64,000 bases of DNA, from contig NZ_CP095075.1 in NCBI RefSeq assembly GCF_022921115.1, positions 1,964,001 through 2,028,000 of the forward strand, given 5' to 3'. Under the pieces are notes generated by a model that was given only the letters and a program-made list of their open reading frames with translations, was not told the DNA's origin and did no database searches. Below, piece by piece: positions 12,949 to 44,949 of the stretch (its first letter is position 1; every line of letters starts with the position of its first letter). Source of the DNA: Halobacillus amylolyticus. GTDB lineage: Bacteria; Bacillota; Bacilli; Bacillales; Halobacillaceae. The position numbers were made by a program, and so were the translations under genes.

Positions 12949-12964
12949 ATTCTTTATAGAGAAC
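12949..12964. promoter_or_regulatory. SinR-type operator before cyclase C1
   Basis: ATTCTTTATAGAGAAC, an almost perfect inverted repeat of the GTTCTYT half-site of SinR, about 30 bases upstream of the cyclase start. On the leftward strand TACAAT follows it directly, a candidate -10 element. Confidence 0.65.
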
Positions 12965-13035
12965 AAAAGTATGGAATTATAAACTAAGCGAGCTTTGTTT
13001 TTTAGAAAGAATACAATATTATTTTTGGATTTGTA

Positions 13036-13065
13036 AGGCCCTCGTTTTAGTTGTAGTGAGGGCCT
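13036..13065 (-). terminator. Terminator after precursor A2
   Basis: AGGCCCTC (13036-13043) pairs with GAGGGCCT (13058-13065), 20 bases past the A2 stop. It separates the C2-A2 module from C1, which has its own operator-promoter region. Confidence 0.7.
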
Positions 13066-13085
13066 CATAAAATCTTTCTTTATTC

Positions 13086-13217
13086 TTAACTGTAGTGATC
13101 AGCATCTTCTGGGTCTGGATCATTTTGGTACTCATCCTCAATCCTTAAACCGGGGCCCGCCATTGTTAAATTAATATTTAGAAATTCCAACTCAGGTCTC
13201 TTCCATTCCTTTCTCAT
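13086..13217 (-). CDS. Lasso peptide precursor A2 (43 residues, paeninodin-like)
   Basis: ATG 13217 follows AAAGGAGGTG. The leader is MRKEWKRPELEFLNINLTM, with W-K-R-P and Thr at the penultimate position. The predicted core begins AGPGLRIED, matching the AGPG start of paeninodin, with Glu8 or Asp9 as ring acceptor, and continues with an acidic tail (EYQNDPDPEDAD) that ends HYS. The 24-residue length, the acidic tail and the terminal Ser all match the phosphorylated paeninodin class. The gene lies 14 bases after cyclase C2, in the same arrangement as C1-A1. Core boundary and ring residue are inferred from the family. Confidence 0.9.
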   Translation of the reverse strand: MRKEWKRPELEFLNINLTMAGPGLRIEDEYQNDPDPEDADHYS

Positions 13218-13231
13218 TTCTTCACCTCCTT

Positions 13232-15175
13232 TCAAATAAACGATTTCAAGAATCGGTAGACAATAACACTTCTAATTAATACCTTAAATTCATGATTAAA
13301 TACTGTTTCTGGTTTCGGTTCATTTGCAAACTTACTCACCCCTCTATCTATAACATCGCCATTTATGAATTCAGAAATAGTTGGGTCTCTCGTCAACTGG
13401 CGAACCTCTTTCAAAAAAGTGTCCCACGTCGGTTCCATTCTTTGTATTACATCAGCCCCTTGAATCCCTCTCACCTTTTGGTTTAATCGTATTTTATCTG
13501 GCAAATAGTTAGCTGTAGATCTTCTGACTAATGCACGATCTTGTCCATTTTGGACATACTGGTTATCGGGCAGAGAGAGACAAAAGCGAATCACTCTCAA
13601 ATCGTTCGTAGGGTCTCGTTCCCACACCCCGTACCTTAAGGATAACTTCGTACCTATAGTGCCATTTAAGTTCCAAAAAAACAGTTGATCAAATTGGCTT
13701 TGCCTTGCCTCTTTTGCGTTAGGAATATAACTCCCAGCTGTGTCAATCTGCCTAGCGTTTAGCTTTTCAAAAACTCCGGTTTTCCTGGCAAGCTCATTAC
13801 TTATGATTTGAGGAAAAGAATAGCTTTGACTAGTTGGAGACAAACGACTTCTAAGAGGATAAAATGCTTTCCTCTGAATAGAGTTCAATACTCTCTTTCT
13901 ACCAACACCAACATTCCTACTGTATTGCTCAACTTCTCGATAAAGCTTTATCCATTTCATCTTCTTAAAGAGATTAGTATAATGATCAAGAGCAGACCCC
14001 CATGAGATCGTATAATTCCCTCTAGACCCTTTCAATAAAATTCTCATCCCCTGGTTTTGAGCATGTTCGTAGATACCCTTAGTCCAAAAAGAATTCCCAT
14101 AAAACTTATAAGGCATTTCAACCATTTTCAGCCAATCATCAATATCTAAATATGGATTTCTATCCTCAAATCTATAATATTGATCGTTTATATTGCCTAC
14201 ATGATTAACTGTGGTTCTGATATAGAAGCTCTCATCAGCTACTCTTCGCTTAGGTGTCCAATCCTCAAAGCTTGCGAGTGGTAGATAGCTCATTGTGTGT
14301 AATGTTTTATTCGCTCTTTTCAAAGAGGGGGCCGCGAAACTTACAACAGTTCCAGAATCTAATCCACCACTTAATTGAGCCCCAACTTGACCATGTGTAC
14401 GTGTTCTACAGTCAACAGCCTTTTGAAACACTTGTCGAAAAGCTTCTTCATATTCTTCATCTGACTTGAATCTTAATGGGCTGCTTTCTTCAATGAGATT
14501 ACAGTATCTCTGAAACCTAACTTTATTATCTTTCACAGAAATAGTGTGGGAAGGTGGAATTTGATAAATCCATTTATAAGCTGTGGTAAATTCATCACTG
14601 GAATCATGCATCCCTGGAATTGCTAAAAACTCAGCCAACCACTCTTCATTTAAATATTTATCCACATAAGGTAACGAAAACATCGGAGTAATCGTTGTAC
14701 TAAATACAAATCGATGTTGCCGATGAAAGTAGTAAAGCGTTCGACTTCCAGAAAAGTCCCTTGCTCCAAAAAACTTTTGCTCATTTTCATCCCATATCAT
14801 AAATGCGAAATCACCAATTAAATATTTTAGGGATTCTTCTCCCCATTTTTGATAGGAAAGTAAAATTAATTTACTATCAGGCATGTTGGCACGAAGTGCT
14901 TTGCTAACTTGTAACGCATCAAATAGTTCTTCACGATTATCAATAATTGCATCTGCTGTAATACTTAACTTTCTATCAGGATCATAGTAAGGCAGCTTTT
15001 CACCAACAGATTCTGGAGTAATCCACTGGGCATGGCAACCGAGAAAGATATTTCCTTGCTGCCATGTTTGCACATCATCGGCTGGGTATTTTTGTAATTC
15101 ATTCATCATGCCATTGCGATCACCGATAGCGATAGGTTCCTTATTGAAGTTAATAATTCCAACAATAGCACTCAT
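13232..15175 (-). CDS. Lasso cyclase C2 (asparagine synthetase-like)
   Basis: A 647-residue paralogue of C1 with long identical blocks such as GCHAQWITPES, ADAIIDNREELFD, GDFAFMIWDE and GARDFSGSR. The N-terminus is MSAIVGIINF, again with Ser in place of the glutaminase Cys. The ATP-binding loop is LSGGLDSGTVVSFAA. I chose ATG 15175, which gives the family N-terminus and has GAGGGATATT upstream, over an earlier start at 15187. It is the first gene of the lasso cluster, downstream of four SinR-type sites. It probably cyclises A2, its direct neighbour. Confidence 0.9.
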   Translation of the reverse strand: MSAIVGIINFNKEPIAIGDRNGMMNELQKYPADDVQTWQQGNIFLGCHAQWITPESVGEKLPYYDPDRKLSITADAIIDNREELFDALQVSKALRANMPDSKLILLSYQKWGEESLKYLIGDFAFMIWDENEQKFFGARDFSGSRTLYYFHRQHRFVFSTTITPMFSLPYVDKYLNEEWLAEFLAIPGMHDSSDEFTTAYKWIYQIPPSHTISVKDNKVRFQRYCNLIEESSPLRFKSDEEYEEAFRQVFQKAVDCRTRTHGQVGAQLSGGLDSGTVVSFAAPSLKRANKTLHTMSYLPLASFEDWTPKRRVADESFYIRTTVNHVGNINDQYYRFEDRNPYLDIDDWLKMVEMPYKFYGNSFWTKGIYEHAQNQGMRILLKGSRGNYTISWGSALDHYTNLFKKMKWIKLYREVEQYSRNVGVGRKRVLNSIQRKAFYPLRSRLSPTSQSYSFPQIISNELARKTGVFEKLNARQIDTAGSYIPNAKEARQSQFDQLFFWNLNGTIGTKLSLRYGVWERDPTNDLRVIRFCLSLPDNQYVQNGQDRALVRRSTANYLPDKIRLNQKVRGIQGADVIQRMEPTWDTFLKEVRQLTRDPTISEFINGDVIDRGVSKFANEPKPETVFNHEFKVLIRSVIVYRFLKSFI

Positions 15176-15198
15176 AATATCCCTCATTTGCTAATTAT

Positions 15199-15322
15199 GT
15201 TCTTTATATTTAGTGAATATTCTTAATAAAGAACAAAAAGATACAACAATCCTCTTTTTGTATCTTTGATCCGGTCTTGCTTTCATTCTATATAAAGAAC
15301 ATACTACACTTTTATAAAGAAC
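15199..15322. promoter_or_regulatory. Promoter region of the lasso cluster with four SinR-type sites
   Basis: Four related sites lie upstream of cyclase C2: a GTTCTTT half-site at 15199-15205, ATTCTTAATAAAGAAC at 15219-15234, ATTCTATATAAAGAAC at 15285-15300, and an AAAGAAC half-site at 15316-15322. On the leftward strand TTGTTC, 17 bases and CTAAAT could form a promoter overlapping the second site, but the -10 match is weak. Repeated sites at this density suggest cooperative repression. Confidence 0.65.
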
Positions 15323-15368
15323 ACAACACTGAATTATCTTTTTAAGTTTTTCCAAGACCGCTATGCTT

Positions 15369-16463: not shown

Positions 16464-16486
16464 CTAGCCCTCCTAAAAGCCCCATA

Positions 16487-17206: not shown

Positions 17207-17238
17207 AACGAACTCCTTCTTAAAAAATTCTACTAAAT

Positions 17239-19026: not shown

Positions 19027-19068
19027 ACCTCTTGATTATGCAGTCTAAAAATGAATACCGGACATACA

Positions 19069-21074: not shown

Positions 21075-21100
21075 AAATTTAGCACCTTCTTTTTTTCCAT

Positions 21101-22258: not shown

Positions 22259-22276
22259 TTTTACTTCACCTTCTAC

Positions 22277-23467: not shown

Positions 23468-23476
23468 AACACCCTA

Positions 23477-24272: not shown

Positions 24273-24280
24273 ACTCTTAT

Positions 24281-25625: not shown

Positions 25626-25633
25626 ACTCTTAT

Positions 25634-31892: not shown

Positions 31893-32237
31893 TTACTCTT
31901 TCCTGTAATGATTCCGCCACTTAATAAATTCAATCAACCCCTTATATTCCTGAAGCTGATCCTTCTGAACCCCTGATTCTTTTAATTCATTCACAAATTG
32001 AATCCACTCATATTCAAGTCTTTGTGACGGTTCCAAGGAGGGTTCCTGTTTTAACAAAGCGTTAATCTCGACATCCAAAACGGATGCAATCTTATTAATC
32101 ATTTGGATTGATGGATTTTTGTTTACGTTTCGCTCGATGTTGCTCAAATATGATTTAGAAATATTCGCCTTTTTGGCGAGCCCTGATAAGGAGAGTCCTT
32201 TGCTTTTTCGAATATTATGGATGTTATTTCCTATCAT
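31893..32237 (-). CDS. sinR: SinR-family transcriptional regulator
   Basis: A 114-residue protein. The N-terminal helix-turn-helix is MIGNNIHNIRKSKGLSLSGL, then SKSYLSNIERN and NPSIQMINKIASVLDVEINALL, matching SinR of B. subtilis (111 residues, with AKSYLSSIERN and NPSIQFLEK). The C-terminus (LEYEWIQFVNELKESGV then EFIKWRNHYRKE) matches the SinR tetramerisation and SinI-binding helices. In B. subtilis SinR represses eps and tapA through GTTCTYT sites. The gene lies inside the exopolysaccharide operon, not beside a visible sinI. SlrR is an alternative, but this protein is closer in length to SinR. Confidence 0.85.
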   Translation of the reverse strand: MIGNNIHNIRKSKGLSLSGLAKKANISKSYLSNIERNVNKNPSIQMINKIASVLDVEINALLKQEPSLEPSQRLEYEWIQFVNELKESGVQKDQLQEYKGLIEFIKWRNHYRKE

Positions 32238-33441: not shown

Positions 33442-34090
33442 CTCCTGTTTTTTCCAAAACTTGAACTGAAGCAGCTTTCTTAATAATTCTCGCTGGTGAA
33501 CCTACAGCCTTGCAGTAAGCTGGAATGTTGGCAATCACCGTTGAACCGGCTCCGATAACGGACCACATCCCGATCGTTTTCCCGGGTATGATAGTTGCGG
33601 ATGCCCCAACGTTAGCACCTTCTGCAATTGAAACGTTTCCGGTCAATGTCGCATTTGGAGAAATATGCACAAAGTTGGCGACAGCATTGTCATGTTCTAC
33701 GATCGCTCCCGTGTTGATAATACAATGTTCCCCTACCCATGCCCCGGCGTTAAGGACGGCATTTGGCATGACAACTGTCCCTCTCCCTATTCTTGCTTTG
33801 GTGCTTACTGTAGCTGTCGGGTGGACAAGTGAGATGTATTGTTCTGGGCGGACCTCCAAAGCATCAGCAAGTCTGTTTCTGATCTTGTTGTCACCAATGG
33901 CAATGATGACTCTCGCCTCTTGATTAAGTAGCTGATTTAGGCTTGCAAATGGACCATACAAGATGCCATTATGTTTAAATTCATCACTATACTTACTGTC
34001 TAAAATACCAATGATCTCATGGTCTAAAGCTGAGGTGATTTCTTGAATCACCTTACTATGTCCACCATTTCCTAATAGAATAATTTTCAT
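33383..34090 (-). CDS. epsM: Sugar O/N-acyltransferase (EpsM/NeuD/PglD-like)
   Basis: A 235-residue protein with an N-terminal nucleotide-binding part (ILLGNGGHSKVIQEI) and a left-handed beta-helix of hexapeptide repeats (GRGTVVMPNAVLNAGAWVG, INTGAIVEHD, ISPNATLTGNVSIAEG). PglD-type enzymes acetylate the amino group made by the neighbouring aminotransferase. Length is close to B. subtilis EpsM (216). It follows the priming transferase gene by one base. Confidence 0.88.
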   Translation of the reverse strand: MKIILLGNGGHSKVIQEITSALDHEIIGILDSKYSDEFKHNGILYGPFASLNQLLNQEARVIIAIGDNKIRNRLADALEVRPEQYISLVHPTATVSTKARIGRGTVVMPNAVLNAGAWVGEHCIINTGAIVEHDNAVANFVHISPNATLTGNVSIAEGANVGASATIIPGKTIGMWSVIGAGSTVIANIPAYCKAVGSPARIIKKAASVQVLEKTGGDAFDKFKNIPLPATYDRE

Positions 34091-34091
34091 G

Positions 34092-34691
34092 TTACATCAC
34101 TTCTTTTGAGCCCTTGAATTTTTCCATTGACACATGTCCTTGATAATTAATACCTTCTCTTTTCAATACTTTGGACATTGTAATGAATAAAATTTTGACA
34201 TCAAGCCACAAGCTCTGGTTGCTTACATACCATGTATCAAAATAAAACTTCTCTTCCCAAGTGATTGCATTCCTTCCGTTCACCTGGGCCCAGCCTGTAA
34301 TTCCAGGTTTCACATAATGTCGCTTAGCTTGCTCCGATGAATAAAGCGGTAAGTACTCCATTAATAATGGTCTCGGTCCTACCAAACTCATCTCTCCCTT
34401 CACTACATTGAAAAGCTGCGGGAATTCATCTAGGCTATATTTCCTTAAAAATTTCCCAACGTTTGTTAACCGTAATTCATCAGGTAAAATCTTTCCCCTG
34501 TCATCTCTTCCAGTTATCATCGTTCTAAATTTATAAAGATAAAACGGTTTCCCATATTGCCCCGGACGTTTTTGTTTAAAGAGAATAGGGGATCCCATCT
34601 TTACCTTTACTACAATGGCAACCATAAAAATAACTGGAGAGAATCCTGCTAAAATGAATAATGAAATGACTAAATCCAATCCTCTCTTCAT
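34092..34691 (-). CDS. epsL: Undecaprenyl-phosphate sugar-phosphate transferase (EpsL-like)
   Basis: A 199-residue initiating enzyme: one N-terminal membrane hairpin (LVISLFILAGFSPVIFMVAI), then LFKQKRPGQYGKPFYLYKFRTM, SLDEFPQLFNVVKGEMSLVG and PGITGWAQVNGRNAITWEEK. It moves a sugar 1-phosphate from a UDP-sugar to undecaprenyl phosphate, the first step of repeat-unit assembly. It has the small PglC-like architecture. Length matches B. subtilis EpsL (202). Confidence 0.9.
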   Translation of the reverse strand: MKRGLDLVISLFILAGFSPVIFMVAIVVKVKMGSPILFKQKRPGQYGKPFYLYKFRTMITGRDDRGKILPDELRLTNVGKFLRKYSLDEFPQLFNVVKGEMSLVGPRPLLMEYLPLYSSEQAKRHYVKPGITGWAQVNGRNAITWEEKFYFDTWYVSNQSLWLDVKILFITMSKVLKREGINYQGHVSMEKFKGSKEVM

Positions 34692-34704
34692 GACAATCTA
34701 ACCC

Positions 34705-34869
34705 CTATTCAACCGAATTTAATGAATAAATGGTTACTAGACTCTTCTTTATTTCTTCAATAATTTCTTGTACACTAAAGTCGTTTGGCTCGTTTCCTTT
34801 TGTATAAATGGTCATTAATACATCTTGCATTTCTTGTTGAGTCAGCTTTTTTGGAATGGTATGATCCAT
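34705..34869 (-). CDS. Small unrecognised protein in the exopolysaccharide operon (54 residues)
   Basis: The frame starts at ATG 34869 with AGTGAGGG six bases upstream; an ATG at 34875 overlapping the galE stop (ATGA) would add two residues. The protein begins MDHTIPKKLTQQEMQDVLMT, continues with DFSVQEIIEEIKKSL and ends SLNSVE. It is mostly helical and soluble, without a signal peptide. I do not recognise it; it lacks the LDxEW pattern of SinI. Tight spacing to galE and epsL supports it as a real gene. Confidence 0.6.
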   Translation of the reverse strand: MDHTIPKKLTQQEMQDVLMTIYTKGNEPNDFSVQEIIEEIKKSLVTIYSLNSVE

Positions 34870-34871
34870 TT

Positions 34872-35960
34872 TCATCCCTCACTTAAAGGCATAAAAAAAG
34901 CCTTTGCTTGACTAAGTACCGGGGTTCTTGTTCCATCGGGTATACTGGATGTCTCCTCATACCCATTGGGATTATTCTGCTGCCATCTCCACGTATCCTC
35001 ACACATTTTTTCAATTCCTCTTTTGGCTGTCCAACCAAGTTCGTCACGCGCTTTTGACACATCTGCAAAACAAATCGGCACATCTCCAGGGCGCCTTTCT
35101 AAGATGGAATAAGGGATTGTTTGACCTGAGGATTTTTCAAAAGCTTCAACCATATCGATCACACTATACCCTTTTCCTGTACCTAGGTTGTAAGTGCAAA
35201 TGCTGCTTGAAGATTGCACTTTCTGTAAAGCACGCAAGTGGCCAGCTGCTAAGTCAACCACATGGATATAATCCCTGACACCTGTACCATCTTTTGTAGG
35301 GTAATCATTTCCGAATACGTTCAGCCTCTCCAATTTTCCTGCCGCAACTTGTGATATATACGGTAATAGATTGTTTGGAACCCCGGTTGGGTCTTCACCG
35401 ATATGGCCGCTTTGATGGGCGCCGATTGGATTAAAGTATCTCAGGATAGCAATGCTCCATTCAGGATCTGAGTGATGAAGATCCAGTAAAACTTCTTCTA
35501 TTATATGTTTCGTCCGGCCATAAGGATTGGCAGCTGCTAGTTTTGCATCCTCGGGGATTGGCACATTGGCAGCTCCATAGACAGTTGCGGATGAACTGAA
35601 TACGAGATTCTTAACTTGATATTTTTCCATTATTTCGCAAAGATTCACGGTGCCGATCACGTTATTTTTGTAATACCAAAGCGGTTCTGCAACAGATTCA
35701 CCGACTGCCTTCAAACCGGCGAAGTGGATGACGGCTTCAATATGATTTTCAAAAAAAACTGTATCTAGATCCTTCTTATTAAGTAAGTCGACATCGTAAG
35801 ACTTGAACGTTCGGCCAGTGATTTCGGATACACGCTTTAATGATTCAGGACTGCTGTTTGAAAAGTTATCGACCACAACAATTTCATATCCTTCATTAAG
35901 AAGCTCCACACACGTATGACTTCCTATATACCCGGCTCCACCTGTTACAAGTATGGTCAT
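34872..35960 (-). CDS. galE: UDP-glucose 4-epimerase
   Basis: A 362-residue short-chain dehydrogenase-type epimerase. NAD binding: VTGGAGYIGSHTCVELL; catalytic SSSATVYG (Ser) and PYGRTKHIIEE (Tyr-x-x-x-Lys); substrate part VRDYIHVVDLAAGH. It interconverts UDP-glucose and UDP-galactose (or the GlcNAc forms) and so supplies donors for this locus together with GalU. Slightly longer than the usual 330-340 residues because of a C-terminal tail after WRWQQNNPNGY. Confidence 0.9.
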   Translation of the reverse strand: MTILVTGGAGYIGSHTCVELLNEGYEIVVVDNFSNSSPESLKRVSEITGRTFKSYDVDLLNKKDLDTVFFENHIEAVIHFAGLKAVGESVAEPLWYYKNNVIGTVNLCEIMEKYQVKNLVFSSSATVYGAANVPIPEDAKLAAANPYGRTKHIIEEVLLDLHHSDPEWSIAILRYFNPIGAHQSGHIGEDPTGVPNNLLPYISQVAAGKLERLNVFGNDYPTKDGTGVRDYIHVVDLAAGHLRALQKVQSSSSICTYNLGTGKGYSVIDMVEAFEKSSGQTIPYSILERRPGDVPICFADVSKARDELGWTAKRGIEKMCEDTWRWQQNNPNGYEETSSIPDGTRTPVLSQAKAFFMPLSEG

Positions 35961-35979
35961 TCAACATCCCTCCCCAAAA

Positions 35980-37044
35980 TTACAAAAAGTTACTTTTATA
36001 TATAATGTTTAGATTCACAACATTTTCATAGTAGAAATACACGAGGTAACAGACAATAATTCCGTAATAAACCAGCTTTTCGTCTCTTTCCCTAAAAAGT
36101 TTGACAACCCATGAGACAAGAATCAATTGATAAAGCCCGAAATAGACGTTAAAGCGGGCAAAGATCCAATTTTGAGTAGCAACAACCATAAACACACAAC
36201 CTATTAAACACATATTAATAATCACATCACTATTAGGGAAAATCTCTCGTAATTTATTACGTCCCAAATAGGCAATTAAAAGCGGAACCAAATCAACAGC
36301 AACCCTAAGTAAATTGGCTCCACCCTCTGCAAAATCTTCGTATCCCCCATATTGAGTACCTTCAATTGCGGTGAATAGCAGTGCTGAAAACTGCTCGTAT
36401 CCCATGACAATAAGGATGGAAAAAACAATGAGTGCTATGGTCGCTTTTGACCAGACTTTCACTTGTACTAAAAAATAAATTGGCAATAAAATAAGAGCAC
36501 TCAGGTGAAATAATGATGCGAAAAGAATGACGATCATATATTTAGTAAAGCTGGCTTCTATTAAAAATTTAATCGCTGTGAAAGCAATCGCAGCTGCTAA
36601 GGCCTGCCTGACTCCATTCATGGAAACAAGAAATAAACCACCTGTAATGTAAACATAAATACTTAATTCTAGCATTCTCGAATAATTGTAGAGCACAACG
36701 ATGACTAGTGAATTGGTTATAAAAGCTGTCGTTATGAGTAATAGTTGTGGATCATTGGAAACATATTTCAACAACATCTGCAGTAGACCAAAGCCTATAT
36801 CTTTCTGGGATTGGATAAACTCCCATGTAAACGTGTTGACTTCATAGGTGTGCTTATAAAAATAGGTATCACCGATATTTGATCTTAGACCAGATACAAC
36901 TACAAGTGACGACAAGGCCGCAGTAATAAGTAATTTATTAGGTCTAATCCATGTGACCGTATTATATTGAACCGAAACAGCTCCAAGCTTGGCTAATAAA
37001 GCAAAGCCAAAAACGAGCGCCAGATTCATCCAAAGTATAGTCAT
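35980..37044 (-). CDS. epsG: EpsG-family polysaccharide polymerase-like membrane protein
   Basis: A 354-residue protein with about ten membrane segments, typical of the EpsG family (Wzy-like). Markers include VVSGLRSNIGDTYFYKHTY near residue 50-70 and the large loop FTAIEGTQYGGYEDFAEGG. It is expected to polymerise repeat units on the outer face of the membrane. Position between the GT genes and galE resembles the epsG place in B. subtilis, whose protein is 367 residues. Confidence 0.85.
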   Translation of the reverse strand: MTILWMNLALVFGFALLAKLGAVSVQYNTVTWIRPNKLLITAALSSLVVVSGLRSNIGDTYFYKHTYEVNTFTWEFIQSQKDIGFGLLQMLLKYVSNDPQLLLITTAFITNSLVIVVLYNYSRMLELSIYVYITGGLFLVSMNGVRQALAAAIAFTAIKFLIEASFTKYMIVILFASLFHLSALILLPIYFLVQVKVWSKATIALIVFSILIVMGYEQFSALLFTAIEGTQYGGYEDFAEGGANLLRVAVDLVPLLIAYLGRNKLREIFPNSDVIINMCLIGCVFMVVATQNWIFARFNVYFGLYQLILVSWVVKLFRERDEKLVYYGIIVCYLVYFYYENVVNLNIIYKSNFL

Positions 37045-37077
37045 AACATTTTCCTTTCAAAGGAAAGCAAAAATTGC

Positions 37078-37968
37078 CTAGTTGAAGGCACCCTTTGTCT
37101 TGTTCATAATATACATATATAACGTGAATCCAAATGGCACAGCCAATATGGCTAATCCCTTATTGGGTGACTCTTTAATAAATTTTGTATTTTTGCACAT
37201 CAAGCTGCTTGATACATAGTGAATTGCCTGTCTATATTTAAATAGTAGACTGGCAAAAGATAATTTCATTAATTCTTTACGGTAAAAAGCAAAGCCTTTC
37301 GGGTTGCTGCGATATTGTTTTAGCATATTATTTGATGAACCATCCGGAAGATATTCTACACAACATAGAGTTTCATTCATTAATAACATCTCGTACTCTT
37401 CATCAAGCCTATAATATTTATATGCTAATCCTACATACTTTTCATTCGTAAATATGGGATAGGGATAGTGCTTTGTTAACTCTGTACGATAGACTAATTT
37501 CTTGTCCCCTGTTACTCCATATTTGTTATATAAATCAAACAATGTAGATTGATGAATCTGTTCAGGGAACGGGGTACCGATGATTTTTTGATCGGTATAA
37601 GAATCAAGCCCTATGATTCCACTAACTTTATCACTGCCGTTCTCCTTCCAATACGTAACAATCTTGTCGACCGCTTCTGCCGGCATATAGTCATCAGAAT
37701 CAATACAAACATTTAGTTCTGTATCAATGATTTCATAAGCCGTATTATGGGCCCCGTGCATCCCCTGATTGTGCTGGTAATGATAAGTAATGGGTATCAT
37801 TGCTTCATCGATCCATCTCCTGACCAACTCTTCTGTCTCATCCGTTGATCCATCATCAATAATTAGCCATGTAAAGTCATCATTCGTTTGTTTTATTAAG
37901 CTTTCATAACATGTCTGAAGGCAATAAGCACGATTATATGTTGGGGTAAAAACAGTTAACGTCTTCAG
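37078..37968 (-). CDS. Glycosyltransferase family 2 with a probable CTG start
   Basis: The intact domain begins KTLTVFTPTYNRAYCLQTCY then WLIIDDGSTDETEELV and VCIDSDDYMPAEAVD, a complete GT-A fold of about 296 residues. The only in-frame candidate start that keeps the N-terminus is CTG at 37968, because an in-frame TGA lies three codons upstream and no ATG, GTG or TTG occurs before the TTG at 37827, which would remove the first catalytic strand. CTGA overlaps the stop of the preceding gene the way ATGA usually does, and AGGTGG lies nine bases upstream. Either CTG is used or the start codon is mutated. Confidence 0.78.
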   Translation of the reverse strand: MKTLTVFTPTYNRAYCLQTCYESLIKQTNDDFTWLIIDDGSTDETEELVRRWIDEAMIPITYHYQHNQGMHGAHNTAYEIIDTELNVCIDSDDYMPAEAVDKIVTYWKENGSDKVSGIIGLDSYTDQKIIGTPFPEQIHQSTLFDLYNKYGVTGDKKLVYRTELTKHYPYPIFTNEKYVGLAYKYYRLDEEYEMLLMNETLCCVEYLPDGSSNNMLKQYRSNPKGFAFYRKELMKLSFASLLFKYRQAIHYVSSSLMCKNTKFIKESPNKGLAILAVPFGFTLYMYIMNKTKGAFN

Positions 37969-39083
37969 CTTACCTCACCACCTAAATCAATATAGGAAGT
38001 TTGTGCGTGGGAAGCTGTTTTTCGGATATCATATCCTTTTTGGTGTAGGGCACTTCTGTCAATTGTTCTCACAGGAGTTTTTGAAATTTGTTCTTGAATC
38101 GCATTCAACCACAGTTTTTGCTCTTTTAAAGACAATCGCCTTACTAAATTAAGCCCCATATCTACTTCCGATGTAATGGTGTCTGCAATAATACAAGGCA
38201 AACCAGCGTTTTGAGCTTCTATCAGAGTTACGGGTAATCCTTCATGAAGGGAAGGGAAAACAAATAAGTCATAGGCCTGGAGCAATCGATGGATATCTTT
38301 TCGAACCCCCAGGACCTTAACCTTACTTTCTATCCCTAGTTCTGTAATCTTTTCTTTAATCTGCGATTTTAAAGGACCGTCCCCGACTAAAATGAGCCTC
38401 GTATTTGGATGAACTTTAGTTAATTTGGCAAACACATCTATTAGAAATAGATGATTTTTCTGCTGGGCAAACCTGCCTACATGTCCTAATACAAAAGAAT
38501 TATGCTCCAATCCCAGCTGTTCTCTTATTTTAGTTCGAGCCTCTGTAGAATAGATAAACCTATCACAATCAACACCATTTTTTAAGATAAAGGCTTGATC
38601 TGATCTGCCTCCAAACAACCATTTTGCTGCAGCATTTGAACATGCATACAGATGAGTTGCATGCTGTCTAATAGTGCTCCCGGCAAGAAATTTATATAAT
38701 TGAGAGGCGATTCCGCCCTCACTCCGAGTGTTATGACTGTGGGCAATCCGGACAGGTACTCGCGCTTTCTTTGCCGCATGCAGAACAATTCCGCTCATTT
38801 TATCCATGTGAGAGTGAACAATTTTGTAGGTTTGATTGGTTTGAAAAAAGTTTGCCAGTGCCTTTTTATACCCTTGATGCCCTACATCCGTCACATACGG
38901 AATCCTGTGGATGACCCCACCCATCGAGGTAATTTCTGAATCAAAAACACCTTCCTTACATGTTAAAAAGTCGAATTGGACTTTTGAACGATCTATATTT
39001 CGATACAAATTCATGATCAATGTTTCCGCTCCACCGCGATTCATGTTAACTACTACATGCAATACCCTTAATGGACGGCCCAT
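37965..39083 (-). CDS. Glycosyltransferase family 4 (EpsF-like)
   Basis: A 372-residue GT-B enzyme: VLHVVVNMNRGGAETLIMNL, HSHMDKMSGIVLHAA, VLGHVGRFAQQKNHLFL and VFPSLHEGLPVTLIEAQNAG. It is similar to the EpsF-like protein at 30716-31870. It starts four codons before the stop of the preceding GT4 gene and ends overlapping the next GT2, so translation is coupled through this part of the operon. Confidence 0.87.
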   Translation of the reverse strand: MGRPLRVLHVVVNMNRGGAETLIMNLYRNIDRSKVQFDFLTCKEGVFDSEITSMGGVIHRIPYVTDVGHQGYKKALANFFQTNQTYKIVHSHMDKMSGIVLHAAKKARVPVRIAHSHNTRSEGGIASQLYKFLAGSTIRQHATHLYACSNAAAKWLFGGRSDQAFILKNGVDCDRFIYSTEARTKIREQLGLEHNSFVLGHVGRFAQQKNHLFLIDVFAKLTKVHPNTRLILVGDGPLKSQIKEKITELGIESKVKVLGVRKDIHRLLQAYDLFVFPSLHEGLPVTLIEAQNAGLPCIIADTITSEVDMGLNLVRRLSLKEQKLWLNAIQEQISKTPVRTIDRSALHQKGYDIRKTASHAQTSYIDLGGEVS

Positions 39084-40225
39084 TCTTTCACCTCTCCTTC
39101 TCCCATATATGTTTGATAGATCTGTCTATTTCTAGCTAATATATGGTTAACACTATATGTTGAGAGAACGACTCTTCTTCCATTTTTACCTAGCTGCTCT
39201 TTTACATCGACCATCCTTGCCAACATTTCGATCTTGTTAGCAAATTGATCGATATCATTTTTGTCAATAATCCAACCATTAAAATTGTTATGAACCAGTT
39301 CACGATGTCCCCTATTTTCAATAGCTACTACTGGGAGTCCACAAGCCATCGCTTCCATAACATTTACAGGAAGCCCTTCACGAAGACTTGAGCCAACGGC
39401 CACATCACTTATTGAGACAAGTTCTTTAATATCTTTTCGAAACCCTAAAAAATCTACCATGTGACTAATCCCTAGCTTTACTGCTAACTCTCGGCAGTTC
39501 TCTAACAATGCACCTTCACCAGCCAACAAAAGCCTTGCCTGTGGTACCTTATCTCTGATTCGAGCTAGTGAATGAAGCAGCAGCTGCTGATTTTTATTTT
39601 TATTAAATTCAGCTGCGTAAAATAATAAAAAGTCATTTGGACGATACCCAAATGACTTCCTGATTGCTACTCTTCGATTGTCACTTAGTGGTTTAAAAAC
39701 ATCTGTGTCAACTCCTACCCCGTTGACTAGCTCAATGGTTCGCGCCTTAAATCGTTTACTTGCTAACTGGTAGTCTTCTTGATTAATCGTAATCAGGCAA
39801 TCTGTATTATGTGCAAGAATTTTTTCAATAGGGTAATAAATCAGCCAGTTAGTAAGCGGGGCACCTTTACAAAAGTGAAAACCGTGTGCTGTGTAAATCA
39901 TTTTTGTGCCTTGCTTTCTAGCATTTCGTGCCGCCAACCTGGTAATCACTCCACCCATAGGTGTATGACAATGGATAATTTTATAGTTGTTCTCATTCAT
40001 GATCGCTTTCAACCCGTTGTAGGCTTCTACATTTTTCAAATCAAGCGGTGATCGTCGGATGGGAATGGTAAATTTTTTGTCAACATATGGGAGATCGGTG
40101 GTTCCACTGGCTGCAACGTGTACTTCCCAACCTTGTTCTTTAAACCATTTTAAATAGGGTAAATGAAAGGCTTTAAAATGATAATCTACCGTCGCGCAAA
40201 ATAAAACCTTATTGATCACATGCAT
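39068..40225 (-). CDS. epsD: Glycosyltransferase family 4 (EpsD-like)
   Basis: A 385-residue GT-B protein: ATVDYHFKAFHLPYLKWF at the N-terminus, YTAHGFHFCKGAPLTNWLIY, then FYAAEFNKNKNQQLLLHSL and REGLPVNVMEAMACGLPVV. The AHGFHF motif and overall pattern are those of EpsD of B. subtilis (381 residues). ATG 40225 is chosen for its AAAGGTGG site; an earlier start at 40255 would overlap galU. It probably adds the first sugar after the priming step. Confidence 0.87.
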   Translation of the reverse strand: MHVINKVLFCATVDYHFKAFHLPYLKWFKEQGWEVHVAASGTTDLPYVDKKFTIPIRRSPLDLKNVEAYNGLKAIMNENNYKIIHCHTPMGGVITRLAARNARKQGTKMIYTAHGFHFCKGAPLTNWLIYYPIEKILAHNTDCLITINQEDYQLASKRFKARTIELVNGVGVDTDVFKPLSDNRRVAIRKSFGYRPNDFLLFYAAEFNKNKNQQLLLHSLARIRDKVPQARLLLAGEGALLENCRELAVKLGISHMVDFLGFRKDIKELVSISDVAVGSSLREGLPVNVMEAMACGLPVVAIENRGHRELVHNNFNGWIIDKNDIDQFANKIEMLARMVDVKEQLGKNGRRVVLSTYSVNHILARNRQIYQTYMGEGEVKEWAVH

Positions 40226-40244
40226 CACCACCTTTGCTTCTTTT

Positions 40245-41123
40245 TTATGTGGCAAATTCCTTTTCCAAAACTGTAGAAAGATAGTCTAATAAATCGTCCT
40301 TTAAATCTTCACGTTCGAGGGCTAATTCAATCGTTGTTTTAATAAATCCCATTTTTTCACCGACATCATAACGTCTCCCTTCAAAGTCATAAGCATAGAC
40401 GGCCTCATATTTATTCAACTCTGCTATGGCATCTGTCAGTTGGATCTCATTACCCGCTCCAGGCTTTTGCTTGCTTAGGATATCGAAAATTGTCGGTGTA
40501 AGAATATAGCGACCTAGTATCGCCAAGTTAGAAGGGGCCTTATCTTGATGTGGCTTTTCTACTAACCCTCGGACATTGAAAAGGCGAGTATCTACCATAC
40601 TGCCATCTACAATCCCGTATCGAGATACCTCTTCTTTCTTAACGGTTTGAACGCCGAGGGTCGATGACTTGTAACGATCATATTGATTTGTCAGTTGTTT
40701 TAAGCATGGAATTTCCGCTCGGACGATGTCATCACCTAACAGAACAGCAAAAGGCTCCTCACCAATAAATTTACGCGCACACCAAATAGCATGTCCCAAT
40801 CCTTTAGGTTCCTTCTGTCGAATATAGTGAATATCGACTAGTTTTGATGATTTTTGCACTTCACTTAATAAGTCGAACTTTCCTTTATCCATAAGGTTCT
40901 GTTCTAACTCGAAAGAATGATCAAAGTGATCTTCAATCGCTCTTTTCCCTTTTCCAGTCACGATAATGATATCTTCAATTCCAGCTTCTATTGCTTCTTC
41001 AACAATATATTGAATGGTCGGCTTATCGACAATAGGCAGCATTTCTTTGGGCATCGCTTTTGTGGCAGGAAGAAACCTTGTCCCTAATCCTGCAGCAGGG
41101 ATTATAGCTTTTTTTACTTTCAT
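40245..41123 (-). CDS. galU: UTP-glucose-1-phosphate uridylyltransferase
   Basis: A 292-residue enzyme with [37 protein letters not shown] and [20 protein letters not shown], all standard for GalU/GtaB. It makes UDP-glucose, the donor for glucosyl transfer and the substrate of GalE. Bacillus usually keeps gtaB elsewhere; a copy in the eps operon gives local supply. Length is the family norm. Located between EpsC-like and EpsD-like genes. Confidence 0.92.
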
Positions 41124-41137
41124 TTATTTATCTCCTT

Positions 41138-42967
41138 TTAGCTCGTAATCGGCACAATTGGCGTTTGTTCGGCTTCAGCGTGATTCGCGAGATTGACTAA
41201 CTTCTCTCTTAAAGCTTCCTTATTTAATGTTTCATAAATAGAAATCATTTCTTCTATTTCTTCGATGTAAAGCTGGATTGTTTTTCCGATATAAATTTTT
41301 GGATACACTTGATTCTTATAAACTTCATCCGCCTTCAGCAGCTCTTCAAACAGTTTCTCCCCAGGCCTTATGCCACTAAACTCAACCCCAATTTCCTCGA
41401 GGGTGTTTCCCGATAGTTTGATTAAGTTTTTAGCAAGGTCAACAATCTTCACGGGGGCGCCCATATCTAGCACAAATATTTCCCCGCCTTTTGTTAATGC
41501 ACCAGCTTGGATAACTAATCGTGATGCTTCTGGGATCGTCATAAAATATCGCACCATTTCCGGATGTGTGACGGTCACAGGGCCGCCTTTTTCAATCTGT
41601 TCTTTAAACAACGGAATCACACTGCCACGGCTCCCAAGAACATTGCCGAACCGTACTGCTACAAACTTAGTTTCGCTTTTTTGATTCATGTTTTGTACAA
41701 TCATTTCTGCTAATCTTTTCGTTGCTCCCATAACACTGGTAGGATTAACAGCTTTATCTGTTGATATCATGACAAATGTACTCACATCGTGCCAACTAGC
41801 AGCTTTGGCAACATTCCATGTTCCTATTACATTATTTTTTACGGCTTCATCTGGGTTCCGCTCCATTAACGGTACATGTTTATGAGCAGCTGCGTGATAA
41901 ATGACGTCAGGATGATGAAAACCAATGACGTTCATCATTTTCACTTCATCCTGAATATCAGCAATTTCCGTAATAAACTCTACTCCAGTATCAGCAAAGC
42001 TTGATCTCAGTTCCTTTTCTATTGAATAAATACTATTCTCCCCATGGCCCAATAGAATCAGCCTTTTCGGATGGAATTTGGAGACCTGTCTCGTAATTTC
42101 AGAGCCAATTGATCCTCCTGCACCAGTAACTAGGACAACTTTGCCTTTGACATAATCCGAAATACTATCTGTATCCAAAACAACAGGCTCCCTGCCTAAT
42201 AGATCTTCTACTTCCACATCCCGGAACTGTTTGACCGAAACTTTCCCTGTTACCAGGTCCTCTAGCATCGGTAAAATTTGCGTTTTGGCTTCTGTTTTTG
42301 CACATTCCTTAAAAATCACATTCAACTCCTGCTTGTTTAATGAAGGAATGGCGATGATAATATTTGCGATCTCCAACTCGTCAACAATTTTCTCAATCTC
42401 GCTTACACCACCTGCGACCGGAATTCCTAAAATATCTAGACGATGCTTCTTAAAGTCATCATCAACGAAGGCAATAGGTGCTAGACGAGAGTCATTGCTC
42501 TTTTGCAATTGCCTGACAACCATAGTTCCAGCAGATCCGGCTCCTACAATTAAGGCCCGTTTATGATTTAGTTCCGGCAAGATAAATGAATTTCGATACA
42601 CTCGCCATAAAAAACGCGATCCTCCTATTAATAAAATATGAAGCATCCACGTGAGTGTCAGCATTTTTATAAAAATTGCCTGGAACACGATGAACTGAAC
42701 AACTCCTGTAACCAGCAGCGAATAGGTCACAGTTTTAAATATAATGAGTAATTCCCCGACACTTGCATATTCCCATACCTTTTTATAAAGGTTTAATTTA
42801 AATGAAAAATACAAGTGGCTTACTAAGATGGCCATCATAGTAATGAGGAATGACAGTGTCATCGCGTAAAAGCTTGAATTCACTAGTAATCGGCTGATAA
42901 AGAGAGAAATGAGTACAATACATGAATCAATGAAAATAAATAGAGACAGTCTTTGTCGATATGTCAT
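41138..42967 (-). CDS. epsC: UDP-sugar 4,6-dehydratase, long membrane form (EpsC/CapD-like)
   Basis: About 609 residues: four N-terminal membrane segments, a CoA-binding-like domain (ALIVGAGSAGTMVVRQL), then the dehydratase domain (VLVTGAGGSIGSEITRQ, HAAAHKHVPLMERNPDEAV, STDKAVNPTSVMGATKRLAE with the T/M-K catalytic pair). It converts UDP-GlcNAc to the 4-keto-6-deoxy sugar used by EpsN and EpsM. Size fits EpsC (598). I chose ATG 42967 behind AAAGGAG over the TTG at 42991. Confidence 0.9.
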   Translation of the reverse strand: MTYRQRLSLFIFIDSCIVLISLFISRLLVNSSFYAMTLSFLITMMAILVSHLYFSFKLNLYKKVWEYASVGELLIIFKTVTYSLLVTGVVQFIVFQAIFIKMLTLTWMLHILLIGGSRFLWRVYRNSFILPELNHKRALIVGAGSAGTMVVRQLQKSNDSRLAPIAFVDDDFKKHRLDILGIPVAGGVSEIEKIVDELEIANIIIAIPSLNKQELNVIFKECAKTEAKTQILPMLEDLVTGKVSVKQFRDVEVEDLLGREPVVLDTDSISDYVKGKVVLVTGAGGSIGSEITRQVSKFHPKRLILLGHGENSIYSIEKELRSSFADTGVEFITEIADIQDEVKMMNVIGFHHPDVIYHAAAHKHVPLMERNPDEAVKNNVIGTWNVAKAASWHDVSTFVMISTDKAVNPTSVMGATKRLAEMIVQNMNQKSETKFVAVRFGNVLGSRGSVIPLFKEQIEKGGPVTVTHPEMVRYFMTIPEASRLVIQAGALTKGGEIFVLDMGAPVKIVDLAKNLIKLSGNTLEEIGVEFSGIRPGEKLFEELLKADEVYKNQVYPKIYIGKTIQLYIEEIEEMISIYETLNKEALREKLVNLANHAEAEQTPIVPITS

Positions 42968-43070
42968 CTTTTTTGGCTCCTTTCCTAGCAATAACCCCTC
43001 TATAAATTGACTCTATTTGCGAATGCTGTATATAGTGGGATTTATGATCGATGAATGTTGAATAAAGTCC

Positions 43071-43108
43071 TTAGGAAGATAGTTTTGGTGAAAAAACCAA
43101 CTTCCTAA
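43071..43108 (-). terminator. Hairpin between the eps leader RNA and epsC
   Basis: TTAGGAAG (43071-43078) pairs with CTTCCTAA (43101-43108), with TTGG/CCAA inside. It could be a terminator that an upstream leader RNA overcomes, since it lies inside the operon and epsC follows. Confidence 0.5.
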
Positions 43109-43109
43109 A

Positions 43110-43260
43110 GATTTTAAATAGGGCATTTAACCCATCCTCACACCATACTAATGCGACTAGCGCTAAGGTCTATTTCAACCCACAGCATGGCCGAGTGCCT
43201 CCATTGATAATGGCAAGGAGACATCGCCTGAATAATTACCTTTTAACGAAAATTAATTCT
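43110..43260 (-). ncRNA. Candidate eps-associated RNA (EAR)
   Basis: The 327-bp gap between epsB and epsC has no gene. In B. subtilis the EAR element, needed for full-length eps transcription, sits in exactly this gap. The minus-strand sequence here is G-rich and structured, with TGCTGTGGGTTGAAATAG, GCGCTAGTCGC and GTGTGAGGATGGG blocks, and is followed by a hairpin at 43071-43108. I cannot run a covariance search, so the bounds are approximate and the assignment rests on location, length and structure. Confidence 0.5.
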
Positions 43261-43294
43261 TTATAACGAACGATAAGGTAAAAAAATAATAGGG

Positions 43295-43966
43295 CTACCT
43301 TTTCTTATTCATAATGGCTCCAACCACGTTTGCATGGGCAAGATCCAAAACTTTTTTTGCTTCCGCTGCTTTTTTAAAATCTGTTTTTCCATGATTAAGG
43401 ATTAATATGACCCCATCACATTGATTGGCTAACACCCTTGTTTCAGTGGATAACAATACAGATGGTGAGTCGATTAAAACGATGTTATACAGATCCCCCA
43501 CCTTTTTTAACAACTCGGACATATTGTTACTTCCAAGGAATTCTGAAGGATTAGGCGAGCTTGTTCCACTAGTTAAGATGTCCAAGCTTCCCATACCCGT
43601 TCTAAAAATCGACTCTTCAAGATTGGCGTGGCCAGTCAGAATGTCTGTTAAACCGATATCGTTTGTCGTTTTAAAAATAGTGTGCAAATATGAATCTCTT
43701 AAATCTGCATCGATTAAGAGCACCTTTAACTTTTGCTGGGCCATAGAAACGGCTAAATTTGCGATCGATGTTGATTTACCTTCCTTTTTTCCTGGTGAGG
43801 TAAGAAGGAAAAGTCGCTGATCTCTGTTTTCTGTTAAAAACTGAATGTTGGTGCGGATCGTCCTAAATTGTTCAGAAATGAGAGATTCGGGATTGGAATA
43901 AGTGACAAGATTTCTTTTTTTAACAGAAGAAGCTTTATTCATTCTATTTAATATCAACAGATTCAC
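43295..43966 (-). CDS. epsB: Capsular/exopolysaccharide tyrosine kinase (EpsB/CpsD-like)
   Basis: A 223-residue BY-kinase: SPGKKEGKSTSIANLAVSMA (Walker A), VLLIDADLRDSYLH (Walker A'), and VLIDSPSVLLSTE (Walker B). The N-terminus carries NPESLISEQFRTIRTNIQF as in EpsB. It works with EpsA, the activating modulator, to control chain length and phosphorylate sugar enzymes. The C-terminus (VVGAIMNKKR) lacks the usual tyrosine cluster. The frame starts inside the end of epsA; a TTG at 43957 behind GAGGTG is another possible start. Confidence 0.88.
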   Translation of the reverse strand: MNLLILNRMNKASSVKKRNLVTYSNPESLISEQFRTIRTNIQFLTENRDQRLFLLTSPGKKEGKSTSIANLAVSMAQQKLKVLLIDADLRDSYLHTIFKTTNDIGLTDILTGHANLEESIFRTGMGSLDILTSGTSSPNPSEFLGSNNMSELLKKVGDLYNIVLIDSPSVLLSTETRVLANQCDGVILILNHGKTDFKKAAEAKKVLDLAHANVVGAIMNKKR

Positions 43967-44684
43967 CTCTTAATTCTACTTCCTCATTTCGCTGCTTCTT
44001 TTTCCTAATCGTACTGTTTCTCTTATTCATAGGGGAGACAAAGCCAATAACAGGGATCTCCAAGTATTCTTCCACATCTTCTCTGTTTTTCACGGTACTA
44101 TCCAAAGTATCTAATAGGAAAACCAGACCGATCCCTGTCATTACACCGAACAGAGCTGCGAGGATAACGGTGCGGCTTTGATCCCCGTTGATAGGAAAGG
44201 GGTTTTCCTTAGCCTCCGATAATAATTGAACTTGGTCAAAATCCAAAATGTTTACAATCTCATTTTTATAAACCTTTGCGGTGGCATTTGCAATCTCTAC
44301 CGCTCGTTTCGGGTCTGTCGCTGTCACCGATATTCGAATTACCTGGGAATCCTCAAGCTGGCTAACCTCAATTTGGCTTGCAAGACTTCCAGCTGACTGA
44401 CTAAGCTGTAACTCCTCTCTTACTTCCTCCATAATGATGGGATCTTTGATCATAACCATCAGTGTATTCATGTTGTCATCTTCTGTACTTAAAATCATGC
44501 GGGTTGATGATTCATAGAGAAGAGTATTGTTTACATGGTTATAACCCAATCCGGCTAACGTTGTAAGTATAGTAATTAGAATAATAATCCAAAAGCGATT
44601 CTTTATTACATCAAAATATTCCTTTAAATTAATCTCTTTTCCTCTGCCATCATCATTAAAGTTAACTTGTTTCATTCTACTCAT
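43944..44684 (-). CDS. epsA: Chain-length modulator of the tyrosine kinase (EpsA/Wzz-like)
   Basis: A 246-residue protein with two membrane segments (FWIIILITILTTLAGLGY and TVILAALFGVMTGIGLVFLL) enclosing an extracellular loop, then a cytoplasmic tail (EEYLEIPVIGFVSPM) that contacts EpsB. ATG 44684, preceded by AAAGGTGG, is the real start; an earlier in-frame start at 44738 lies inside a SinR-type palindrome. It is the first gene of the eps operon, about 115 bases after the predicted transcription start. Confidence 0.88.
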   Translation of the reverse strand: MSRMKQVNFNDDGRGKEINLKEYFDVIKNRFWIIILITILTTLAGLGYNHVNNTLLYESSTRMILSTEDDNMNTLMVMIKDPIIMEEVREELQLSQSAGSLASQIEVSQLEDSQVIRISVTATDPKRAVEIANATAKVYKNEIVNILDFDQVQLLSEAKENPFPINGDQSRTVILAALFGVMTGIGLVFLLDTLDSTVKNREDVEEYLEIPVIGFVSPMNKRNSTIRKKKQRNEEVELRGESVDIK

Positions 44685-44720
44685 GAATACCACCTTTACT
44701 ATGCTGTCGTTTAAACATTC

Positions 44721-44736
44721 ATTCTTTATAAAGAAC
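44721..44736. promoter_or_regulatory. SinR-type operator in the eps leader
   Basis: ATTCTTTATAAAGAAC, a near-perfect palindrome downstream of the predicted start of transcription and 37 bases before the epsA start codon. Confidence 0.7.
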
Positions 44737-44807
44737 AAAAAGACTAAAAAAATATACTGGGTACCAAGTTATGATGGATTATCCTCTAATGCGAGGCTTC
44801 TTCTCTT

Positions 44808-44836
44808 ATTTTAGTTCTTTATATAGAACATGTCAA
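44808..44836 (-). promoter_or_regulatory. Sigma-A promoter of the eps operon with an operator in its spacer
   Basis: On the minus strand TTGACA (44836-44831), a 17-base spacer and TAAAAT (44813-44808). The spacer is TGTTCTATATAAAGAAC, so the SinR-type palindrome (44814-44829) fills the spacer. Transcription should start near 44801. Binding there would block polymerase. Confidence 0.75.
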
Positions 44837-44887
44837 TAGTAAAAGACAAATCTCATGCTACTAAGGTGTTCCTAACACTTAATTAAG

Positions 44888-44949
44888 AAAGAACACTGTT
44901 CAGTAGTCTATTCATTTTAATATGATATAAGATATTCTTTATAAAGAAC
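44888..44949. promoter_or_regulatory. Further SinR-type sites upstream of the eps promoter
   Basis: An AAAGAAC half-site at 44888-44894 and a full palindrome ATTCTTTATAAAGAAC at 44934-44949. The rest of the 44739-45239 gap holds no gene; its right side must contain the promoter of the rightward gene at 45240. Confidence 0.62.

Follow-up and report, generated by a model that had tools for sequence, protein, structure and literature searches.

We have analysed here a 64,000-nucleotide stretch of the Halobacillus amylolyticus genome (contig NZ_CP095075.1, positions 1,964,001 to 2,028,000; hereafter the window), in which two modules of paeninodin-type lasso peptide genes and an epsA-O-like exopolysaccharide (eps) operon are all encoded on the minus strand. 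Palindromes upstream of both lasso modules and of the eps operon are, judging from sequence comparison, very probably operators for a SinR-family repressor that would co-repress the two sets of genes. A sequence-only reading of the window had proposed such a link between lasso peptide production and the biofilm matrix switch. That proposal now gains support from the recurrence of the sites across genera, their tracking of sinR, their conservation, their overlap with core promoters and the linkage of sinR genes to the lasso loci. Since the sites lie on both lasso promoters and on eps, and recur in genomes that carry SinR, the peptide is probably made when the biofilm matrix is made.

Probable operator sites in the lasso and eps upstream regions

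The putative operators are inverted repeats of GTTCTYT with a 2-base-pair (bp) centre, 16 bp in all, and depart by no more than one or two mismatches from the literature form GTTCTYT-NN-ARAGAAC. The resemblance to SinR half-sites claimed by the sequence-only reading holds: sequence and spacing equal the repeat bound by Bacillus subtilis SinR, which binds the inverted-repeat duplex TTTGTTCTCTAAAGAGAACTTA with a dissociation constant of 300 nM (PMC3163267; this and the other papers cited are drawn on through extracts of their text). The six palindromes reported earlier, at 12949, 15219, 15285, 44721, 44814 and 44934, are correctly placed and have 0 to 2 mismatches to ATTCTTTATAAAGAAC, and the half-sites at 15199, 15316 and 44888 read directly as GTTCTTT/AAAGAAC. 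Every site on that earlier list is therefore real, but the list overlooked a site at 43256-43271 and a weaker one at 12997.

Upstream of McjC2, the macrolactam synthetase (cyclase) of lasso module 2, the operator GTTCTTTATATAGAAT (15285-15300, minus strand; one mismatch to RTTCTTTATAAAGAAY) abuts or overlaps the inferred -10 element, and a site is present at this position in 8 of 8 aligned genomes. A second operator matching the pattern, GTTCTTTATTAAGAAT, lies at 15219-15234 (minus strand). Two GTTCTTT half-sites accompany this pair, one between operator and gene (15199-15205, plus strand) and the other within the inferred -35/-10 region (15316-15322, minus strand); the latter, as TTGTGTTCTTT, is also found in genomes G025, G030, G031 and G226. 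Upstream of McjC1, the module 1 synthetase, the operator GTTCTCTATAAAGAAT (12949-12964, minus strand) is positioned 11 nucleotides past an inferred -10 TATAAT, and the weaker operator-like site ATTCTTTCTAAAAAAC (12997-13012, minus strand) has two mismatches. The epsA upstream region contains, all on the minus strand, a distal operator matching the pattern (44934-44949), a GTTCTTT half-site (44888-44894), the palindrome at 44814 and a proximal operator (44721-44736). In the open reading frame (ORF) list epsA begins at 44738. The ATG at 44684 is likelier, and the proximal operator then sits upstream of the gene, 52 to 37 nucleotides before the start codon. The operator at 43256-43271 (minus strand, one mismatch) lies between epsB and epsC.

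Chance was considered as an origin for these palindromes and was ruled out by window shuffles, a genome scan, a permuted-motif control and a Poisson test. Allowing up to three mismatches, the window contains 20 matches over both strands; 100 shuffles gave 2.5 on average and never more than 9. Within the span from 12949 to 44949 (about 32 kb), which was the choice of the sequence-only reading, seven strict sites are seen where uniform placement predicts 0.067 (Poisson P 1e-12).

Frequent occurrence of the motif at unrelated promoters would have spoken against a specific role, and the whole genome (4.3 Mb, 2 contigs) was scanned with this in mind. Only nine sites come within one mismatch of RTTCTTTATAAAGAAY. 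Seven of these are in the span, one (3773870) precedes a SinR/SlrR-like gene and one (3476412) is isolated. At up to two mismatches the count rises to 36, double the 18 of the reversed control. The looser literature form RTTCTYTNNARAGAAY, which has relaxed ends and was scored at up to one mismatch, gives 41 sites (control 10), of which 8 lie within the span, another 3 before the slrR-like gene and 30 elsewhere. All eight in the span are intergenic, provided that epsA starts at 44684. Of those elsewhere, 29 of the 30 were inspected (the exception being the one on contig C2), and 23 of the 29 fall inside ORFs of at least 130 amino acids. Six lie outside such ORFs, four of them with an ORF of this size starting within 300 bp on either side. 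These four, which are isolated one-mismatch sites (L033 4472, L029 3883, L270 1501 and L022 1691), are possible further targets. Another of the six, at 3420238, has zero mismatches and no ORF of at least 130 amino acids nearby.

Association of the motif with SinR

We examined the relation between motif and regulator in two sets of genomes that encode a lasso cyclase. The first comprises 45 genomes, namely 39 of 398 genomes of the class in which a cyclase was found plus 6 from a scan of the family (7 of 44 genomes, including the window's own). A full-length SinR was called in 24 of the 45, with best expectation (E) values of at most 3.3e-32, as against at least 1.1e-8 in the others. In total 51 upstream regions were scored; the window's genome was counted once, though both of its cyclases were scored, and five second cyclase copies were excluded from the genome count (G030, G025 and G031, no site; G139 and G387, with a site). 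The motif, with up to two mismatches and within 300 bp upstream of the cyclase, is present in 23 of the 24 SinR-carrying genomes and in none of the 21 without SinR (Fisher P 6e-12). Counted by genus, the figures are 11 of 12 and 0 of 3 (P 0.009). Permuting the half-site letters in 200 orders gave a mean of 0.8 hits in 25 upstream regions; this control is imperfect, in that its four highest-scoring orders (23 of 25) are the motif itself with a shifted Y. Across whole genomes, the 24 SinR carriers together contain the literature pattern at up to one mismatch 215 times and its reversed control 114 times; the totals for the other 21 are 141 and 129. The pattern exceeds the control in 20 of the 24 carriers and 10 of the 21 others.

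The second, later set was drawn from the order of genome G220, with the motif and the upstream interval fixed beforehand. A cyclase is encoded in 197 of the 392 genomes of this order; 28 of these were already in the first set, and 90 of the other 169 were taken, 30 by best E value and 60, among the places listed, for genus spread, before their sequence had been seen. The motif is present in 45 of 53 SinR-carrying genomes and in 2 of 37 others (P 6e-15). The same trend is seen within single genera: 8 of 9 genomes with SinR against 2 of 13 without in genus g34 (P 0.0015), and 9 of 10 against 0 of 2 in g183 (counted by hand). Physical linkage sharpens the picture, the motif being found in 38 of 39 genomes in which the cyclase has a sinR-family gene within 50 kb, in 7 of 14 with only an unlinked SinR and in 2 of 37 with none. 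Part of the unlinked cases may reflect split contigs.

Several observations weigh against a SinR-lasso link of this kind, or against its generality. In the first set, the SinR-carrying genome G203 lacks a site within 300 bp, having instead a two-mismatch site at -384; three of the five second cyclase copies (in G025, G030 and G031) are without the motif; and in 4 of the 24 carriers the pattern does not exceed the control genome-wide. In the later set, 8 of the 53 SinR-carrying genomes (G521, G628, G746, G495, G737, G719, G635 and G769) lack the motif at the cyclase copy that was scored, although G746 has another copy, outside the scoring, beside a sinR gene on contig C24. Conversely, G720 has a perfect site and no SinR match at E 1e-12, and G615, also without SinR, has a poor one. 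When the presence of SinR was predicted in advance from the motif for the last 10 genomes of this set, the prediction was right in 6. The genomes are moreover related, so that the P values overstate independence, and at least two pairs (G213/L037 and G499/L045) look like the same contig and are thus non-independent. Within the window's own genome, 30 of the 41 loose-pattern sites lie outside both the span and the slrR-like gene, and several SinR-like proteins are encoded, each of them a candidate binder. Finally, a search of the genome for the TasA family (PF12389) gave no match, and no operator at a tapA-sipW-tasA operon was found; the classical second matrix target thus seems absent. Taken on sequence evidence, the association between motif and SinR is a strong trend with exceptions and not a rule.

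Candidate regulators

The SinR homologue that the sequence-only reading had placed at 31893-32237 (minus strand) is confirmed: this 114-amino-acid protein, encoded directly after the epsN-like gene and thus an eps-embedded paralogue, aligns over residues 1-113 to B. subtilis SinR (1b0n) with a phmmer E value of 3.9e-25. Its N-terminal helix-turn-helix (HTH) domain is SinR-like with conserved recognition-helix residues; in this region KSYLS and ER are invariant among five aligned SinR proteins. It is not the only candidate. A second SinR, encoded at genome position 3354326, is closer to the B. subtilis protein (60% identity, against 46% for the window copy; the two are 47% identical to each other), and the operators are consequently not assignable to the window copy. 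The C-terminus of the 3354326 protein matches the SinI-interaction domain (PF08671 match at 3354542), whereas the PF08671 matches of the genome at E 0.001 do not include the window copy, even though phmmer does align the C-terminus of that copy to SinR. A tree of 39 SinR-family proteins places the copies that follow epsN (10 rows) in one group with support of 100/99 and the epsA-linked copies (4 rows) in another, with the 3354326 protein on the B. subtilis SinR side. The window copy, belonging to the eps-embedded group, is thus not an orthologue of B. subtilis SinR. The genome also encodes a SinR/SlrR-like HTH protein at 3774088, weaker HTH matches elsewhere, and SinI-domain ORFs outside sinR at 3772227, 3774343 and 3805519, these three being over the curated cut-off.

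We consider the B. subtilis-type SinR at 3354326 most likely to be the regulator. The window paralogue lies downstream of the eps operators and so probably takes part in feedback or in mixed complexes. A different division of labour, in which the operators are read mainly by the eps- or lasso-linked SinR paralogues (here that at 31893-32237) and lasso and eps control stands apart from the global biofilm switch, is possible though doubtful. It would suit the separate grouping of the eps-embedded and epsA-linked copies, the stronger occurrence of the motif where a sinR-family gene is linked than where SinR is only unlinked, and the absence of the window copy from the SinI-domain matches. Against this, some motif-bearing genomes (G104, G220, G339, G428, G751, G654 and G551) have a single SinR match that lies elsewhere, and the recognition helices are nearly identical, which makes a shared specificity probable.

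Two other loci of the genome carry related genes. The region 3772068-3774420 (L025 4069-6421) contains a SinI-domain ORF and an AraC-like regulator (recognized by eye). Three SinR-type operators come next, followed by an HTH ORF and by a SinI-domain ORF separate from it, a layout that looks as if an slrR-like gene had been split in two. The B. subtilis-type sinR itself (L024 8327-13632, genome 3354326 onward) is located just upstream of a second polysaccharide locus, with two PHP-type phosphatase-like genes, one Polysacc_synt_2-like gene and one GtaB-like gene identified by eye; only a weak two-mismatch operator precedes it.

Promoter geometry and proposed mechanism

The operators are closely associated with putative core promoters. 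For eps, a promoter scan identifies TTGACA - t GTTCTATATAAAGAAC (44829-44814) - TAAAAT (44808-44836, minus strand), in which the operator itself serves as the spacer. The same arrangement, with the operator exactly filling a 17-bp spacer between TTGACA/T and TAAAAT or TAATAT, is found in 5 of 5 epsA upstream regions (the window, L036, L048, L051 and L154), being ranked second of the two candidates shown in L051 and L154. For McjC2 (15285-15326, minus strand) we assign a -35 TTGTGT (15326-15321) and, after 17 bp, a -10 TATGTT (15303-15298) that runs into the operator; in the window and its near relatives this pair was assigned by eye, and automatic ranking picked otherwise. A site is present in 29 of 33 lasso upstream regions, which were taken from SinR-carrying genomes and three named loci. 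The best-scoring promoter ends 0 to 16 nucleotides before a site in 18 of the 29, as compared with a mean of 3.5 and a maximum of 12 in 500 random placements.

From this geometry a mechanism can be proposed. SinR dimers or tetramers would bind the 16-bp repeats over the core promoters of McjC2-A1, of McjC1-A2-kinase-B1-B2-nucleotidyltransferase-exporter and of the epsA-O-like operon. Bound SinR would block RNA polymerase (repression by occlusion), keeping both lasso modules and eps silent. SinI-type antirepressors or an SlrR-like partner, for which the ORFs at 3772227, 3774343 and 3805519 are candidates, would then remove SinR, and polysaccharide and lasso peptide would appear together. Derepression would also yield the eps-embedded paralogue, which could close a feedback loop. 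The binding, the preference for repression over activation, the release by SinI and the restriction to matrix-producing cells are all parts of this scheme that we infer from sequence.

Operators that serve activation, or that bind a mixed SinR/SlrR complex, would be a different matter from simple repression. The slrR-like locus, with its three operators and its separate HTH and SinI-domain ORFs, and the presence of two sites at many lasso promoters could be read in this way. The positions of the operators, inside the -35/-10 spacer or on or just past the -10, are however those at which a block to polymerase is expected, and we regard the idea as improbable.

Conservation and linkage across genera

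The lasso sites are conserved beyond their surroundings. In an alignment of the lasso upstream region from eight genomes the 32 operator columns average 94% conservation, and 25 of the 32 are invariant, against 47% for the 170 other columns, a figure depressed by the counting of gapped columns among the latter.

In the upstream regions of the second cyclase copies of G030 and G025 we observed inverted GTTCTCT half-sites with a 12-bp rather than a 2-bp centre, and so about one helical turn wider (L067 1388-1413 and L068 1391-1416, some 80 to 105 bp upstream of the gene). These repeats may represent either a variant operator or a terminator hairpin.

A contig scan yielded 23 loci encoding a relative of the cyclase, in which a site was scored at up to two mismatches within 300 bp upstream of the first cyclase gene. 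An operator-like site is present in 13 of the 23 and absent from 9; the remaining locus, L049, starts too near the gene to judge. The site-bearing loci come from Bacillus aerolatus, Ammoniphilus, two Cytobacillus, three Cohnella, Salipaludibacillus, Evansella, Mesobacillus and three metagenome-assembled Bacillus/Alkalicoccus (L047, L050 and L053). The site in the Cohnella locus L039, located inside coding-looking upstream sequence, may be due to chance. No operator was found within the 300 bp in five named Paenibacillus loci (L041, L044, L045, L046 and L055), three acidobacterial loci and one cyanobacterial locus (the last four being L054, L056, L057 and L058).

Many of the loci bring lasso, eps and sinR genes together. 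The lasso clusters of B. aerolatus, of both Cytobacillus and of Mesobacillus continue directly into epsA-epsB-epsC, with sites before lasso and eps genes alike. In the Cohnella loci L042 and L052 the sinR match begins about 20 bp past the end of the exporter match, making sinR the last gene of the lasso operon; it is likewise the final lasso-operon gene in G410 and G330. The gene order in G374 is lasso-sinR-epsA-epsB-epsC, and in Ammoniphilus a convergent sinR gene stands just after the lasso cluster. A sinR-family gene directly follows the epsN-like gene in 10 genomes, the window's included. Within the first set, a sinR-family gene lies no more than 25 kb from the cyclase in 18 of the 24 genomes with SinR (counted by hand). 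The eps sites recur as well. Among 11 loci showing both epsB and epsC, the window again included, and counting by hand, an operator lies within 300 bp of epsA in 9 (not in L158 or L166) and a site matching RTTCTYTNNARAGAAY with at most one mismatch lies between epsB and epsC in 8 (not in L038, L164 or L166).

This adjacency of lasso and eps genes in several genera, together with the reported proximity of paeninodin-like clusters to capsular polysaccharide loci (PMC13381572), raises the question of whether the motif was passively inherited with a mobile eps-lasso super-locus and is now functionless at the lasso promoters. We hold this to be highly improbable. The operator columns are conserved and their flanks are not, the sites are mostly missing from SinR-less genomes of the same genus, and sites are kept in the lasso loci L169-L172, where a search with the window's proteins over about 19 kb each found no epsA or epsB. 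That the palindromes are transcript hairpins or terminators, as inverted repeats in intergenic DNA might be, is scarcely credible: they are AT-rich, both halves fit the SinR half-site in order and spacing, and they stand upstream of or within inferred promoters, and it is on this promoter geometry that we ruled the hairpin reading out.

Relation to known systems

The arrangement most resembles the B. subtilis SinR/epsA-O system (PMC3163267, PMC6123443), with which it shares the operator half-site and spacing, an epsA-O-like target containing EpsG-, EpsL- and EpsN-like genes, and the encoding of SinR and SinI-domain homologues. It differs from that system in that lasso modules carry operators, in the extra SinR paralogue inside the eps operon and in that no TasA-family gene was found. 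The nearest precedent for the peptide is kurstakin of B. thuringiensis (PMC3909190), where the SinR regulon likewise includes a peptide natural product needed for the biofilm. Kurstakin is a non-ribosomal lipopeptide, however, and the extracted text of that study reports no SinR control of eps and no lasso peptide.

Paeninodin-type clusters with a cyclase, an HprK-like kinase, B1, B2, a nucleoside triphosphate (NTP) transferase and an MsbA-like exporter beside exopolysaccharide genes have been described (PMC13381572). According to that work, lasso and eps genes rose together in the stationary phase of P. alginolyticus, paeninodin-like clusters co-localize with capsular polysaccharide loci, and a role in biofilm is offered as speculation only, the biological role of paeninodin-type peptides being described as unknown. 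The term SinR has no occurrence in the main text as extracted, and the strain studied was a Paenibacillus; the five named Paenibacillus loci examined here are, unlike the present lasso loci, without an operator. We found no report linking SinR to a lasso cluster in open-licence PMC full text, searched through titles and the starts of abstracts, a coverage outside which most subscription journals lie. In the extracts concerned, PMC11705953 does not contain "SinR" and PMC13274455 does not contain "lasso".

A SinR-type operator on lasso promoters turns a biofilm role of paeninodin-type peptides into a testable regulatory claim. If co-repression is correct, it predicts the timing and the cell type of lasso peptide production and extends the SinR regulon to a ribosomal peptide product, and silent lasso clusters might be switched on by removing SinR or supplying SinI. 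A broader proposal, about which we are evenly divided, is that SinR, eps and the paeninodin-type lasso genes would constitute one ancient matrix module across Bacilli. The peptide would then be a matrix-phase product, its synthesis confined by the bistable SinR/SinI switch to cells that produce matrix, with a possible role in the biofilm as a matrix component, a signal or a policing agent; in some lineages sinR would by now have become a lasso-operon gene.

Lasso modules and eps operon

Module 2 consists of McjC2 (13232-15187) and the precursor A1 (13086-13217; this and all other genes of the two modules are on the minus strand). Among NCBIfam models McjC2 is matched best by the lasso cyclase model NF033535, at 390 bits and thus below the cut-off of 525. 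A1, read directly, has 43 amino acids, with a core AGPGLRIE...DADHYS whose boundary was set by eye. Module 1 comprises McjC1 (10950-12920; NF033535, 384 bits, below cut-off), the precursor A2 (10792-10953), an HprK-like kinase indicative of paeninodin-type tailoring (9769-10707; Hpr_kinase_C, E 8e-7, below the curated cut-off), the B1 or PqqD-like recognition protein (9480-9776; NF033536, over cut-off), the B2 leader peptidase (8980-9453; NF033537, over cut-off), a nucleotidyltransferase (7815-9029; domain match to NTP_transf_5), the MsbA-like ABC exporter of the lasso cluster (6022-7863; domain match) and a phosphoesterase-like gene. The paeninodin-type set of cyclase, B1, B2, HprK-like kinase, NTP transferase, exporter and precursor is thus complete, with the cyclase and kinase models scoring below their cut-offs.

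The 53-amino-acid precursor A2, also read directly, has a core that apparently begins with Asn (NGPGNANTD..., boundary by eye); its long tail includes two more stretches that contain Cys. Lasso peptides do not usually start with Asn, and the product of A2 could be of another ring type or another product.

The eps operon, likewise on the minus strand, opens with the epsA-like (Wzz) gene (43944-44684; domain match), followed by an epsB-like tyrosine kinase (43295-43966; AAA_31) and an epsC-like polysaccharide synthase (41138-42991; Polysacc_synt_2). A domain scan of the remainder (32263-41123, 33383-34090 not included) identifies an NTP transferase, glycosyltransferases, EpsG, an epimerase, an EpsL-like sugar transferase and an EpsN-like DegT aminotransferase. 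A Mutator-family transposase (24393-25571) lies on the opposite, plus strand, with the eps genes on one side and those leading to the lasso modules on the other. Another genome (L157; G139 C47 14000-33000) has two lasso cyclase genes on one contig and, between them, an eps operon whose epsA is preceded by a site.

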